Shown here piece after piece: positions 39,282-44,305 of a stretch of DNA of 64,000 nucleotides (its first letter is position 1; each line of letters begins with the position of its first letter). The notes below the pieces were generated by a model. The model saw only the letters and a program-made list of their open reading frames with translations. It searched no databases and was not told the origin of the DNA. The stretch covers positions 62,001 to 126,000 of the forward strand of contig NZ_MTAW01000127.1 of the NCBI RefSeq assembly GCF_002154725.1, in the 5' to 3' direction. Position numbers and translations under genes: made by a program. The stretch is from Nostoc sp. 106C. GTDB taxonomy: Bacteria; Cyanobacteriota; Cyanobacteriia; Cyanobacteriales; Nostocaceae.

Positions 39282-40034
39282 TTATCCAAATCGATAGCCA
39301 AAACCTCTGACAGTCACAATGTACTCTGGACGACTAGGATCTAACTCTAATTTTTCTCGCAACCAGCGGATGTGAACATCTACAGTTTTGCTATCTCCGA
39401 CAAAATCTGGTCCCCAAACTTGATCCAGCAATTGTTCGCGTGACCATACTCGACGGGCATAGCTCATAAACAGTTCTAGAAGCCGAAACTCTTTGGGCGA
39501 CAGACTTACCTCTTGACCGCGAACCAGCACACGACACTCTTGAGGATTCAAGCTGACATCCTTGTACTTTAATACGGGTAGTTGAGGCAATGTGCTGAAA
39601 CGCTGGCGGCGAAGTAAAGCACGACAGCGAGCAACTAACTCCCGCATACTAAAGGGTTTGGTGAGATAGTCATCTGCTCCTACTTCTAAACCTAGAACAC
39701 GGTCAGTCTCACTACCTTTGGCACTAAGCATTAAAATCGGTACTGGGTTTCCTTGATGACGTAGCAAGCGACAAATATCTAAGCCATTGATCTGCGGCAG
39801 CATTAAATCAAGGACTACCAAGTCAAAGGAAACTTCTCCTGAGTTCGGTTCAAAACTTTTGAGATATTCTACAGCCGATCGCCCATCAGTAGCCGTTACT
39901 ACTCCATAGCCTTCTTCCTCCAACGCTACCACTAGCATTTCCCGGATTAGTTCTTCATCTTCTACTACTAGAACGCGGCTTGTTTGCCCTATATCCGCTT
40001 TGGCAGAAAACTTGGTTGATTCGCTGGTATACAT
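39282..40034 (-). CDS. sphR: phosphate response regulator SphR
   Basis: A 250-aa OmpR/PhoB-type response regulator. The receiver domain (about 20-140) has VVEDEELIREML, the phosphoacceptor Asp in DLVVLDLMLP and the Lys in YLTKPFSMREL. The winged-helix DNA-binding domain (about 155-250) has LSPKEFRLLELFMSYARRVW, SREQLLDQVWG and VDVHIRWLREKLE. It is followed by sphS and phoU, so I call it SphR. The first ATG is at 40034; the longer frame to 40070 begins with TTG. Expected targets carry PHO boxes such as the one at 16815-16844. Confidence 0.93.
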   Translation of the reverse strand: MYTSESTKFSAKADIGQTSRVLVVEDEELIREMLVVALEEEGYGVVTATDGRSAVEYLKSFEPNSGEVSFDLVVLDLMLPQINGLDICRLLRHQGNPVPILMLSAKGSETDRVLGLEVGADDYLTKPFSMRELVARCRALLRRQRFSTLPQLPVLKYKDVSLNPQECRVLVRGQEVSLSPKEFRLLELFMSYARRVWSREQLLDQVWGPDFVGDSKTVDVHIRWLREKLELDPSRPEYIVTVRGFGYRFG

Positions 40035-40510
40035 TGAGATCACAAAAGTTTGGGTCTGTACTGCTATCAAGACGATGACTGAATCAATTATCGAGCCTCA
40101 GTGCATTTACGCCTCTAAGCATAATGCTTTACTTGATAAAACGTAACATTCATCACATAATCTCAAATATTATAAATCACTACTGCTACCTACAAGCAGA
40201 TAAGAGTGTTTTTCAGAGCTTGAAATATTGAATTTTTGTATGCACGCAATTCCTACTTGACAATAACGGAATTAGTTGAGTATATTTTCATAGTACACAA
40301 GTACTATAAATTAAAGAAAGCTTTTCCCTTGAAACAAGCGGACACTTGTGTAGATAGTTCTTAAGGATTTTTAGTGTCTGTTGATTCTTTGTTTCAGTAT
40401 TTGCACTGCGTGAAAAACGCATATTTACAGGCTACTCTGATGTCTGCATAGGTAAGTCTTGGTATGGCTTGCTACTCACTACATTGTTGCATGTTTAAAG
40501 GAGTTGAAAT
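40035..40510. other. divergent promoter region between sphR and the coiled-coil genes
   Basis: It carries the sigma-70-like promoter and dyad described at 40257-40306. I see no PHO box facing sphR. No open frame is visible. Confidence 0.5.
40257..40306 (+). promoter_or_regulatory. sigma-70-like promoter with overlapping dyad, for the coiled-coil genes
   Basis: A consensus -35 TTGACA (40257-40262), 18 bp, then TATATT (40281-40286). Transcription would begin near 40293, inside a perfect dyad TAGTAC-ACAA-GTACTA (40291-40306) that could be an operator. It leaves a 5' leader of about 215 bases. The spacing of the dyad (GTA-N6-TAC) does not fit NtcA, which needs N8. Confidence 0.55.
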
Positions 40511-41494
40511 ATGACTACAGTTGCAGTCAAAGACAGCAAACAACAAATAGTACAGGCATTTCAACAAATTATTACAGAAAGGAAAAAATTAGATTCAAAA
40601 ATAGCCACTAAACAAGAGGAAGCAGAAAAGGCAAAAAATCAAGAAATTCTAGTAGCTGCTTCTACATACACTGTTGATAGTATTGTTAAAGGTTTAGCTG
40701 ATTTACAATTAGAGTTTGGTGGTATTGTCAATGCCCTATCTGAAAAATTAGCTCAAGAAAATTCCAAATTAGATGAATTAAACCGAGCTATAGAAATTGC
40801 AAATCAGCAGTTACAAGAGCTTCAGCAAATCAGGATTGTAGCAGATGTTTTAGATATTTTAAATCAAGAACATCAAGAAAAGCTAAAAATATTAGAACAA
40901 GAAATTTCCAGTAAGCGAGAAGCTCTTGAAAAAGAAATTATAACTAGGCGTAAAGAGTGGCAAAAAGAGCAAGCAGAATACGAAGAAGCACTAAAATCTT
41001 ATAACGAATTATTAGTTAAACAACGTACCTCCGAAGCAGAAGAATATCAGTATAAGTTAGAAACAACACGAAAACTAACTACAGATGCTTATGAGGCAAG
41101 AAAACGCAACTTAGAACGGGAAATACAAGAAAGTACTCAACAGAAACAGAAAAACTGGGCTGAACGTGAAAAAATCCTCACTGAACATCAACCTTTGTTT
41201 ACAGAATACGAGAAAAAAATCGCAGCATTTCCTACTGAGTTAGAAGAAGCAGTTAAGAAAGCTAGAGAAGAAGCAATTAAAGAGACAAGCCAAAAAGCTA
41301 AAGTCGAAGCTGATTTGTTTGAAAAAGAATGGGAATCAAGCAAACAGAGTTATGAATTAAAAATTCAATCTTTAGAAGAAACTATTAAGAAACAAACTGA
41401 GCAAATTGAAGGAATGTCTGCTCAATTACAAACTGCCTTGAAACAGGCGCAAGACTTAGCAATGAGAGCTTTTGATAGTTCTAATGCTAAATAG
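40511..41494 (+). CDS. coiled-coil protein, first of a tandem paralogous pair
   Basis: A 327-aa protein that is almost wholly alpha-helical, rich in Glu, Lys and Gln, without Cys or membrane segments. After a 50-residue lead, a conserved segment TYTVDSIVKGLADLQLEFGG begins the shared region; long heptad coils follow, with a KKIAAFPTELEEAVKKAREE break and a C-terminal helix MSAQLQTALKQAQDLAMRAF. It starts at an ATG with AAAGGAG seven bases upstream. The next gene is a clear paralogue. I do not know a function. Filament-forming coiled-coil proteins are known in multicellular cyanobacteria, and this pair has the right build, but no sequence signature proves it. Confidence 0.8.
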   Translation: MTTVAVKDSKQQIVQAFQQIITERKKLDSKIATKQEEAEKAKNQEILVAASTYTVDSIVKGLADLQLEFGGIVNALSEKLAQENSKLDELNRAIEIANQQLQELQQIRIVADVLDILNQEHQEKLKILEQEISSKREALEKEIITRRKEWQKEQAEYEEALKSYNELLVKQRTSEAEEYQYKLETTRKLTTDAYEARKRNLEREIQESTQQKQKNWAEREKILTEHQPLFTEYEKKIAAFPTELEEAVKKAREEAIKETSQKAKVEADLFEKEWESSKQSYELKIQSLEETIKKQTEQIEGMSAQLQTALKQAQDLAMRAFDSSNAK

Positions 41495-41561
41495 TGATTA
41501 ATCCGATGATGACAATCTTAATTGTCTTGATAAGTTAATTTTAAAATTATGGAGGTTTGTT

Positions 41562-42641
41562 GTGGTAGTTAAAAAACCAACTGATAAGAGCACTAAAGCT
41601 GAAATCTTGCAAGCTTATGAAGAGTTAGCAAAAGAGACAGCAGCCGTTAAAACACAACTGAATCAAGCACTGAAAGAAAGCCAAGCTGTTGCTAAAGAGA
41701 AGCCCAAATTAGAGATAAAGACTACTATGAATCCGCAATCTACTGTTCAGCAAAAGATGAATTATACAATTGAAAGCTTGGCTAAAATTCAGTTAGGCTT
41801 TGGTAGTGCGGCCAATGAATTATCTGAACAGTTAACTACGCAAGCATCTAAATTAGCAGAAATTAGAGAAAATGTAGAGAAAGAAGTAGAACAGCTAAAG
41901 CAACTACATAATTTAGAAATATCTGAAGATATTTTGGATACTCTGATCGCAAACTATGAAGATAATTCTAAAAACTATCAAGAAGAGTTTAGCCAGCAGA
42001 AAGAAGTTTTATTACAAGAAATTGATGAGCAAAGGAAAACTTGGATAAAAGAACAAGATGAAAATAGCAGATTAATCAAAGAACGAGATGAAAATCTCAA
42101 AAAGACTCGGCAAAGAGATGATACAGAGTATAAATATAATTTAGAACTTCAACGGAAATTAGCAAAAGATGAATACGAACAGCAGCAAAAAGAGTTAAAT
42201 AAGCAATTAGAAGAATTTCAGCAAGAAACAGAGAAAGAATGGGCTGAGTGCGAAAAAATAATTGCTGAAAGAGAAAAACAATTTGAAGAATCTAAAGCTA
42301 AGGTAGAAGCATTTCCGAAAGATAAAGAAGCTGCTCTCAAAAAAGCAACAGAGGAAGGCAAGGGTATTGCCTACTATCAAGCTAAAATAAAATCAGATTT
42401 ATACAGTAAAGAAGTAGAAGGACAAAAGCGTTTTTATGAACAAAGATTGCAATCTTTAGAACAAAATATTACTAATCAAGACACTCGCATTCAAAACCTT
42501 TCTAAGCAGCTTGAATCTGCCCTCAAGCAAGTTCAGGATTTAGCAGTGAAAGCTATTGAAGGAACTGCAAATGTAAATTCATATCAAGCAATCAAAGAAA
42601 TAGCCTTAGAACAAGCGAAAAGTCAAGTGAAGAATAAATAA
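41562..42641 (+). CDS. coiled-coil protein, second of a tandem paralogous pair
   Basis: A 359-aa paralogue of the preceding protein. Matching blocks in the same order are QKMNYTIESLAKIQLGFGSA, TEYKYNLELQRKLAKDEYEQ, SKAKVEAFPKDKEAALKKA and LSKQLESALKQVQDLAVKAI. The start is GTG at 41562 with a perfect GGAGG (41551-41555) six bases before it. The 67-bp gap to the first gene has no terminator, so they are probably co-transcribed. It ends at a 32-bp perfect palindrome. The function is unknown; hetero-oligomeric coils formed by both paralogues are a natural expectation. Confidence 0.8.
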   Translation: MVVKKPTDKSTKAEILQAYEELAKETAAVKTQLNQALKESQAVAKEKPKLEIKTTMNPQSTVQQKMNYTIESLAKIQLGFGSAANELSEQLTTQASKLAEIRENVEKEVEQLKQLHNLEISEDILDTLIANYEDNSKNYQEEFSQQKEVLLQEIDEQRKTWIKEQDENSRLIKERDENLKKTRQRDDTEYKYNLELQRKLAKDEYEQQQKELNKQLEEFQQETEKEWAECEKIIAEREKQFEESKAKVEAFPKDKEAALKKATEEGKGIAYYQAKIKSDLYSKEVEGQKRFYEQRLQSLEQNITNQDTRIQNLSKQLESALKQVQDLAVKAIEGTANVNSYQAIKEIALEQAKSQVKNK

Positions 42642-42664
42642 GCCAATTGTATTTTCCAGATAAA

Positions 42665-42696
42665 TGTAGAGATGTAACTCGAGTTACATCTCTACA
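42665..42696. terminator. 32-bp perfect palindrome after the coiled-coil pair
   Basis: A perfect inverted repeat with arms TGTAGAGATGTAACTC and its complement, 23 bp after the stop of the second coiled-coil gene. It is followed by AAACAGCATTTTTAT on the plus strand. It is placed to serve as a convergent terminator for the coiled-coil genes and the 38-aa minus-strand gene. Palindromes of this GTAGAGAC-like type also occur as dispersed repeats in Nostoc. Confidence 0.65.
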
Positions 42697-42736
42697 AAAC
42701 AGCATTTTTATATTTATCAAAAGTCTTGACTTAGAG

Positions 42737-42853
42737 TTAGTTGTCTCTTTTAGGCGGAATACCATTATTTATCGGTTTTTTTCTACTTGTTGCTTGATTA
42801 GCTATGTTTTTATTATTTGATGATTGCTGAGAATTATTTTGTGTGTTAGACAT
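42737..42853 (-). CDS. microprotein (38 aa), Asn/Gln-rich with basic C-terminus
   Basis: An unlisted small frame with ATG at 42851-42853: MSNTQNNSQQSSNNKNIANQ, then ATSRKKPINNGIPPKRDN, stop. The C-terminal RKKPINNGIPPKR resembles RRKPPNNGKPAK of the neighbouring 41-aa frame on the same strand, which argues that both are real. It is likely disordered. No Shine-Dalgarno is visible. It converges with the coiled-coil gene pair. Function is unknown. Confidence 0.5.
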   Translation of the reverse strand: MSNTQNNSQQSSNNKNIANQATSRKKPINNGIPPKRDN

Positions 42854-42986
42854 AAGACTAAACCCGTGAATAATTTATTTATCTATGTTTTAAATCTACA
42901 TAGTGTGCAGCTAGATCTCCGGAAATTATTTAAATACTTTATATTCAAGTTAATTCAAAACAGTTAAAAATAGGCACTCAAAAAAA

Positions 42987-43013
42987 TAGAGACGCTATAG
43001 CTTTACGTCTCTA
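42987..43013 (-). terminator. intrinsic terminator after the 41-aa microprotein gene
   Basis: The stem TAGAGACG/CGTCTCTA, read on the minus strand, is followed by a run of T (complement of 42980-42987). It lies 77 bp beyond the stop of the minus-strand frame 43091-43216, in the right direction, which supports that frame being transcribed. Confidence 0.7.
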
Positions 43014-43090
43014 AAACAGAGGAAACCCATTATTTTTATTTATTTAAAAAGTTTAAAAAATAAATTCTCAAAAATTAAACAAACAGAAAC

Positions 43091-43216
43091 TTAGTTTGTT
43101 TCATCTAATTTTTTAGGCTGCTGTTGATTATCAGGCTTTTTGTTGCTGTTGAACCTGATAGCACCAGGCTCAGTTTTGGCTGGCTTGCCATTGTTGGGAG
43201 GTTTTCGACGAGCCAT
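43091..43216 (-). CDS. microprotein (41 aa), basic, Pro/Asn-rich
   Basis: An unlisted small frame with ATG at 43214-43216: MARRKPPNNGKPAKTEPGAI, then RFNSNKKPDNQQQPKKLDET-N, stop. It shares the core K/R-K-P-x-N-N-G-x-P with the 38-aa frame 240 bp downstream and has its own terminator. It is highly basic and probably unfolded alone; it could bind nucleic acid or the acidic coiled-coil proteins nearby. No function is known to me. Confidence 0.55.
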   Translation of the reverse strand: MARRKPPNNGKPAKTEPGAIRFNSNKKPDNQQQPKKLDETN

Positions 43217-43531: not shown

Positions 43532-44305
43532 TTAAGCAAAGGTGGAAAAATCTAGATTGGGTGGAATATCTTGAATACGCCCTGGACCGATCGCACGCAG
43601 TGCTTCTTTGAGGTCAATATCGCCAGTGTACAAGGCACGACCTACAATTACACCAGTAACGCCTTGTGGTTCCAATGCCAACAAGCTCAACAAATCGGTA
43701 ACAGAACTCACCCCTCCAGAGGCAATTACTGGTATAGAAATTGTGGCAGCGAGTTCTCGCAACGCATCTAAATTCGGCCCGGCGAGAGTTCCATCGCGGT
43801 GGATGTCGGTGTAGATGATCGCAGCTGCTCCCAATTCTTGCATTTGTACAGCTAGTTGAGTAGCTAAAACTTCTGAAGTTTCTAGCCAACCGCGAGTTGC
43901 TACTAGTCCGTTACGGGCATCAATACCGATAACAATCTGTTCGGGAAATTCTTGGCAGAGTTGCTGTACTAGCTGGGGTTGTTCTACGGCAATAGTTCCC
44001 AAAATCGCCCGCTGTACGCCTATATTCAATACTTGCTGCACGCTGGCCTTGTCGCGCAATCCCCCGCCTACTTGAATCGGTACTGATACAGCTTGGGCGA
44101 TCGCTTCAATTGCCCCCAAGTTTACTACTTTACCCGCTTTAGCACCATCGAGATCAACCACGTGTAGCCTAGCAGCACCCTGATCAACCCACTGTTTGGC
44201 AACATCAGCAGGATTTTCACTAAAAACTTGCGATCGCTCGTAGTCTCCCTGATAAAGTCGCACACAGCGGCCTTCTAGTAAATCAATTGCTGGAATTACA
44301 TCCAT
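43532..44305 (-). CDS. hisA: phosphoribosylformimino-5-aminoimidazole carboxamide ribotide isomerase (HisA)
   Basis: A 257-aa TIM-barrel enzyme of histidine synthesis that catalyses the Amadori rearrangement of ProFAR to PRFAR. The first catalytic Asp is in [20 protein letters not shown], the second in [16 protein letters not shown], with phosphate-binding GGGLR and [11 protein letters not shown]. The family length is about 240-260. It is upstream of no other his gene, as usual in cyanobacteria, where his genes are scattered. The DUF2499/DUF3593 pair lies upstream on the same strand. Confidence 0.95.

Follow-up and report, generated by a model that had tools for sequence, protein, structure and literature searches.

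A zicK/zacK-type gene pair and a probably unlinked microprotein family between hisA and sphR in Nostoc sp. 106C

In the genome of Nostoc sp. 106C (assembly GCF_002154725.1), two genes for coiled-coil proteins stand next to two very small genes on the opposite strand, and the question is whether these four genes are one functional set or neighbours that share an interval. We analyzed a stretch of 64,000 nucleotides (the window; contig NZ_MTAW01000127.1, positions 62,001 to 126,000, numbered here from its first letter), in which a preliminary description made from the sequence alone had read the genes between 40511 and 43216 as one undescribed set. We find it very probable that two separate things lie side by side here, namely a zicK/zacK-type pair, most likely the known ZicK/ZacK, and an unlinked microprotein family, designated mp38 and mp41. 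This confidence spans the identity of the pair as well as the separateness of the microproteins; the damage- or stress-triggered switch discussed below is graded apart. The coil pair is of a known kind, most likely one more copy of a system already described, and the headline claim is therefore an ordinary one. What this analysis adds is a predicted operator, the range of taxa in which the ZicK/ZacK family occurs and its relatives in phages.

The coiled-coil pair, its identity and descent

The first gene (40511..41494, plus strand, ATG start at 40511) encodes 327 amino acids and the second one (41562..42641, plus strand, GTG start at 41562) 359. The sequence confirmed all four reading frames of the preliminary description, the paralogy of the two large proteins (38% identity across residues 7-323 of the 327, E 4.9e-47) and their strong Shine-Dalgarno sequences (AAAGGAG before the ATG, GGAGG before the GTG). 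The helical build that it had proposed for both stands for the 359-residue protein, whose AlphaFold2 model (built from 18 sequences, and made for this protein only) comprises five helices and loops with the longest helix at residues 122-262 (mean pLDDT 76.7, pTM 0.25). Its statement that no known domain explains the four proteins holds for Pfam and NCBIfam, where none of them has a family above the cut-off, but not for PHROGs: PHROG 29668, to which no function has been assigned, matches the two large proteins almost from end to end. The PDB contains no relative of the 359-residue protein detectable by its sequence or by the fold of its model.

To the left of the pair lie phoU-, sphS- and sphR-type genes (the last one, a response regulator gene, at 39282..40070), and to the right a hisA-type gene (43532..44305; named from reading the sequence, not from a family search), all on the minus strand. 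In Anabaena sp. PCC 7120, phoU, sphS and sphR are all4501, all4502 and all4503 (PMC7564538; this and the other papers given by PMC number were available as excerpts), and alr4504 and alr4505 encode two partner hypothetical proteins, for which a role in DNA metabolism and recombination was guessed (PMC8147232). The window has the same order and strands, i.e., phoU-sphS-sphR on the minus strand followed by two coil genes on the plus strand, as compared by locus-tag order only, and because of this match the 327- and 359-residue proteins are assigned to Alr4504 and Alr4505, respectively. These are reportedly the proteins described as ZicK and ZacK by Springstein et al. in FEBS J in 2021; the dependence of the match to PCC 7120 on gene order weakens the identification. 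The window has the adjacent, paralogous and coiled-coil-rich pair expected of ZicK/ZacK, its helicity being predicted from the ZacK model. The filament-type pair of the preliminary description is thereby supported, whereas its undescribed four-gene set is not, the pair being by gene order the described Alr4504/Alr4505.

In Anabaena, ZicK and ZacK are reported to form heteropolymers, to associate with the elongasome and to interact with SepJ (PMC7766704, PMC8262864, PMC10653889, in excerpts that name no locus tags). By orthology, the window proteins would most likely polymerize together as an intermediate-filament-like heteropolymer and, via the elongasome and septal proteins, maintain the shape of the trichome. 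Loss of zicK-zacK in Anabaena is reported to result in zigzag trichomes.

Of 145 genomes of the family, 91 contain ZacK homologues, as do 40 of 338 genomes of the class, mostly as two neighbouring matches; the 91 include remnants or broken copies (G014, G034, G060, G063, G067, G109). A single ZacK match was found in five genomes of the family, in four of them as a remnant (G034, G060, G109 and G067, the last of 57 amino acids), while in G091 ZacK is intact and the retrieved stretch contains no ZicK; the copies in G014 and G063 are broken. Except for G091, this co-retention is consistent with an interdependent heteropolymer. Short zacK remnants were observed beside hisA and/or sphR in L127, L156, L277, L279 and L280, which reads as repeated loss of the pair. 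In a midpoint-rooted tree of 17 ZicK, 17 ZacK and two phage proteins (see below), ZicK and ZacK each form one group with strong support and the phage proteins fall outside the split; therefore, one duplication preceded the spread among these sequences. The zicK-zacK operon (40511-42641) would accordingly be the product of one old duplication, mostly retained as a pair. The suggested restriction to filamentous or multicellular species had to be rejected: ZacK is present in records of Aliterella, Chlorogloea and Chroococcus, which are coccoid genera.

The microproteins of the hisA-sphR interval

mp38 (42737..42853, minus strand) encodes a basic protein of 38 amino acids with the motif RKKPINNGIPPKRD at its C-terminus, and mp41 (43091..43216, minus strand), which follows the hisA-type gene, a basic protein of 41 amino acids with RRKPPNNGKPAKTEPG at its N-terminus; the motif KPxNNGxPxK is common to both. 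In a number of genomes, the profile of either gene picks up the other one as well (E ~5e-6 to 6e-3), and many, not all, of 27 relatives have the same two frames downstream of zacK. Two structures read by eye lie nearby: a hairpin AGAGACG...CGTCTCT between mp41 and mp38 (42988..43012), likely the mp41 terminator, and a perfect inverted repeat with 15-base arms between the convergent zacK and mp38 (42666..42695), likely their shared terminator.

Frames this short, most of them without a clear Shine-Dalgarno sequence and with hairpins in the vicinity, could be conserved stretches without coding function, such as terminators, RNA or regulatory sites, rather than genes. The substitution pattern speaks against this. 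Among 41 distinct mp38 and 29 distinct mp41 coding sequences compared in disjoint close pairs, dN/dS is 0.23 for mp38 (19 pairs, p 2e-22) and 0.38 for mp41 (13 pairs, p 2e-8). Because the sequences had been picked by their protein motif, the test was also run with the shared motif masked, and the synonymous excess persisted (0.31, p 6e-10, and 0.38, p 4e-6, respectively). Furthermore, start and stop are preserved across many species, and the interval has only two Rfam matches, both below the gathering score. A non-coding origin is hardly credible on these tests and was rejected; judged by their coding pattern, mp38 and mp41 are genuine genes. The preliminary description was right in proposing two mutually related microproteins, and their conservation between related species, on which it had made the proposal depend, was found.

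No profile match to either protein exists in Pfam, NCBIfam or PHROGs, and asl4506, all4506, asl4507 and all4507 were not mentioned in the literature searched. Genes this small can escape annotation, and this real family has no model in Pfam or NCBIfam. An AT-hook, the core of which is R-G-R-P, was considered and rejected, as the core reads NGKP or NGIP in the window and RGRP only in L141 and L154 among the members printed. As a best guess, the proteins may bind nucleic acid or another acidic partner via KPxNNGxPxK. A variant of 53-54 amino acids with the same motif, ending in IPPWLDEND or close to it, occurs at another locus in four genomes of one genus (L150-L153).

Are the microproteins tied to the coils? 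Among the 145 genomes, 38 have a match to mp41 and 55 to mp38 at E 0.01. With strong matches (E under 1e-7), 31 genomes have either microprotein together with ZacK, 15 a microprotein only, 60 ZacK only and 39 neither (Fisher p 0.47). Three further groupings gave p 0.70-0.72, so that four of the five groupings tested lie at 0.47-0.72; strong mp41 alone shows a weak positive association with ZacK (21, 5, 70 and 49 genomes, p 0.04). Co-occurrence was counted without a tree, and the p values are therefore descriptive.

Among the 31 genomes listed for mp41, the gene is no more than 4 kb from hisA in 29 (by zacK in 21); among the 53 listed for mp38, it is equally close to sphR in 47 (by hisA in 39, by zacK in 33). 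These lists omit some weak matches (53 of the 55 mp38 genomes and 31 of the 38 mp41 genomes are included), and the anchor count for hisA, sphR and zacK covers only those ZacK genomes that also have a listed microprotein, G067 being counted as lacking ZacK in spite of its remnant; the count of microprotein-zacK distances (2 kb) covers 89 of the 91 ZacK genomes. Genomes without coils have hisA, mp41, mp38, sphR, sphS and phoU in this order on the same strand, as in L122 and L124, or only parts of the series. In G113 and G136, mp41 is away from all three anchors.

One could still imagine that all four genes are one functional set in which the basic microproteins modulate the acidic coiled coils. 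Their charges are opposite, and where both occur they are usually adjacent (less than 2 kb from zacK for mp38 in 33 of the 35 genomes and for mp41 in 21 of the 23); in addition, six genomes hold mp38 with sphR and zacK away from hisA, and strong mp41 has the weak association mentioned above. However, the presence of either microprotein is independent of ZacK, which is missing from 15 of the 46 genomes with a strong microprotein match, and where the block is broken, mp38 lies by hisA without zacK nearby in five genomes (G102, G002, G139, G116, G125) and with sphR alone, with no ZacK in the genome, in eight, although contig ends can mimic some of these breaks. Moreover, mp38 and mp41 are convergent with zacK, with the inverted repeat in between. 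A four-gene unit was rejected on this independence and on the linkage to hisA and sphR, and we regard it as very improbable. Since mp41 stays by hisA and mp38 by sphR with or without the coils, the grouping is mainly the synteny of the hisA-sphR interval, where the opposite-strand zicK-zacK operon lies or was lost. The expectation that the four genes stay together was thus not borne out, and the independent scattering of homologues, which the preliminary description had named as an argument against its grouping, largely applies to the small genes. mp38 and mp41 would then represent a separate basic microprotein family between hisA and sphR, coils present or not.

Putative control of zicK and zacK

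Upstream of zicK, a putative promoter consists of a -35 hexamer TTGACA (40257..40262, plus strand; present in 50 of 64 zicK upstream rows at varying position) and, 18 nt after it, a -10-like TATATT (40281..40286, plus strand), recognized from sequence and alignment. Shortly after the latter lies the palindrome TAGTACACAAGTACTA (40291..40306), which at 40292-40305 fits the Nostoc LexA consensus RGTACNNNDGTWCB (PMC3091678) and is therefore a predicted operator. The consensus is strictly matched in 19 of 48 upstream rows from Nostocaceae and relatives (the window, 23 of 27 relative loci and 24 further genomes), and in 17 of these 19 the box begins 33-37 bases downstream of the first base of a TTGACA. 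For comparison, the DNA around those rows of the 48 that have long loci (342,923 bases) contains a single site, the reversed pattern occurs in none of the 48 rows, and the consensus in none of 16 upstream regions from other families (16 of the 26 genomes considered below). Transcription of zicK-zacK probably stands under a stress or DNA-damage repressor, which in Nostocaceae and their close relatives may act through a LexA-type operator that closely follows the -10. PMC3091678 is not among the full-text matches to alr4504 or alr4505, supplements being outside the search.

Further downstream, the alignment revealed a conserved leader block (40439..40475, plus strand) with GATGTCTGCAT (40439-40449) and an NtcA-consensus-like GTAN8TAC (40462-40475), which is widely retained ~49 bases before the zicK start. 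NtcA regulation has been reported for alr4504 and alr4505 (PMC8147232) and for alr4505 (PMC7290344), and in BMAA proteomics Alr4505 rose 20-fold and Alr4504 4.35-fold (PMC8147232). A structured RNA leader before zicK was rejected (consensus fold -1.24 kcal/mol, two-sided change in 1 of 11 pairs).

Other families appear to be wired differently. All 26 genomes outside the family with class-wide ZacK matches (L251-L276) were inspected. In 18 of them, a gene of the XRE helix-turn-helix type is divergent from zicK (within ~530 bases in 17, at 3.1 kb in L257), and in 14 it is followed by an IrrE-like Peptidase_M78 gene. The XRE and M78 profiles derive from members found at these very loci; five of the helix-turn-helix and two of the M78 members are confirmed by Pfam. 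In a whole-genome Pfam search, there are 0-3 M78 genes per genome, and one stands beside zicK in the same 14; judged from this copy number, chance adjacency is unlikely. The gap shared by the XRE gene and zicK contains palindromes, TGCAAACTNCAGTTTGCA or near in one subtype and TTGA...TCAA in the other, which look like operators. In Deinococcus, IrrE cleaves DdrO and thereby starts the radiation response (PMC7907104), and in many other families a divergent XRE repressor with an IrrE/ImmA-like peptidase may act as the corresponding switch. Neither neighbour was found in any of 29 scanned loci of Nostocaceae, Aliterella, Chlorogloea and Chroococcus.

Several observations weigh against a damage-responsive control of the pair. 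Strict matches to the LexA consensus are limited to 19 of 48 rows, many others having the variant TAGTACN4ATACTA, and among these rows three genomes are probably counted twice and all are related by descent. In the own genome, AGTACNNNNGTWCT, a related pattern, matches 17 times per strand vs. 8 and 10 for the reversed control, and 10 of 22 inspected sites lie inside long frames; many of these sites are therefore due to chance. Others, on the favourable side, precede genes read from their sequence as uvrA and ssb. Outside the family, an XRE neighbour is missing in 8 of the 26 genomes; of these eight, L266 and L273 are truncated by the end of the contig. HExxH is present in four of ten M78 sequences and absent from the other six, of which four read HELME, and cleavage can therefore not be assumed.

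Phage relatives and comparison with known systems

In tblastn searches, ZacK finds gp268 of Bacillus phage G (L238:4995-6023; 27.8% identity, E 3e-14), and ZicK has no phage match. Against the ZacK profile gp268 reaches 90.5 bits and against the ZicK profile 66.9 bits, co-linear over nearly the full length, with its reversed and 400 shuffled copies all below 0. A second member occurs in Lysinibacillus phages LysYB1 and LysYB2; M3_0082 of LysYB1 (L250:5983-7062) scores 34.1 (ZacK) and 27.4 bits (ZicK), is 32.8% identical to gp268, and is directly followed by genes for TerD, TerD and TerC. PHROG 29668 has no member in 14 control genomes; among viral contigs, the ZacK profile finds no relative and gp268 only phage G itself, and among plasmids there is one record with ZacK (Kovacikia minuta) and none with gp268. 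A literature search for phage G and gp268 returned only papers on other phages, judged by their titles. Three genes before gp268, phage G has an RNA-repair-like pair (L238:1318-3984), gp264 (AAA kinase-like, with a weak HD match) and gp265 (a T4-type RNA ligase).

The LexA-type box, the XRE and IrrE-like neighbours and the phage relative beside Ter genes are three kinds of evidence pointing to a filament system switched on by damage or stress. We tentatively propose, at somewhat less than even confidence, that ZicK/ZacK-type filaments could be the effectors of such a switch, LexA-repressed in Nostocaceae and XRE-repressed under an IrrE/ImmA-like peptidase in other cyanobacteria, with the same family in large Bacillaceae phages, once within a Ter stress cluster (TerD-TerD-TerC), i.e., a cytoskeletal stress response beyond trichome shape. 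If true, this would link the bacterial cytoskeleton, multicellular shape and the DNA-damage response in a directly testable way. The same evidence, together with the rise under BMAA, could be taken further to mean that ZicK/ZacK are primarily stress effectors and not shape filaments, the trichome phenotype being secondary. We consider this unlikely, given the heteropolymers and the zigzag phenotype reported in Anabaena; furthermore, no Ter gene is annotated in 11 kb around gp268, and the Ter proteins of LysYB1 match none of the other loci longer than 3 kb that were compared. The regulatory wiring and the phage relatives, of which the literature searched (supplements and subscription papers were outside the search) gave no account, are predictions from sequence comparison.

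Compared with known systems, the window pair resembles ZicK/ZacK of PCC 7120 in having two adjacent coiled-coil genes beside sphR that are mostly kept as a pair and encode (predicted) helical proteins; that it is another species' copy is, as far as seen, the only difference. The likeness to the cyanobacterial LexA regulon lies in the fit of the window palindrome to its consensus, and the boxes of L003, L007 and L017 are the reverse complement of the ssb site AGTACTTATGTACT (PMC3091678). With the IrrE-DdrO and ImmA-ImmR switches, the loci of many other families share XRE repressor and M78 peptidase genes side by side and divergent from zicK, but none stands beside zicK of the window, and one subtype has no HExxH. 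Finally, gp268 and M3_0082 (PHROG 29668) are full-length relatives of ZicK/ZacK, gp268 being co-linear with them over nearly its full length, and differ from them in being encoded by a single gene outside the ZicK/ZacK split, in LysYB1 beside TerD-TerD-TerC.

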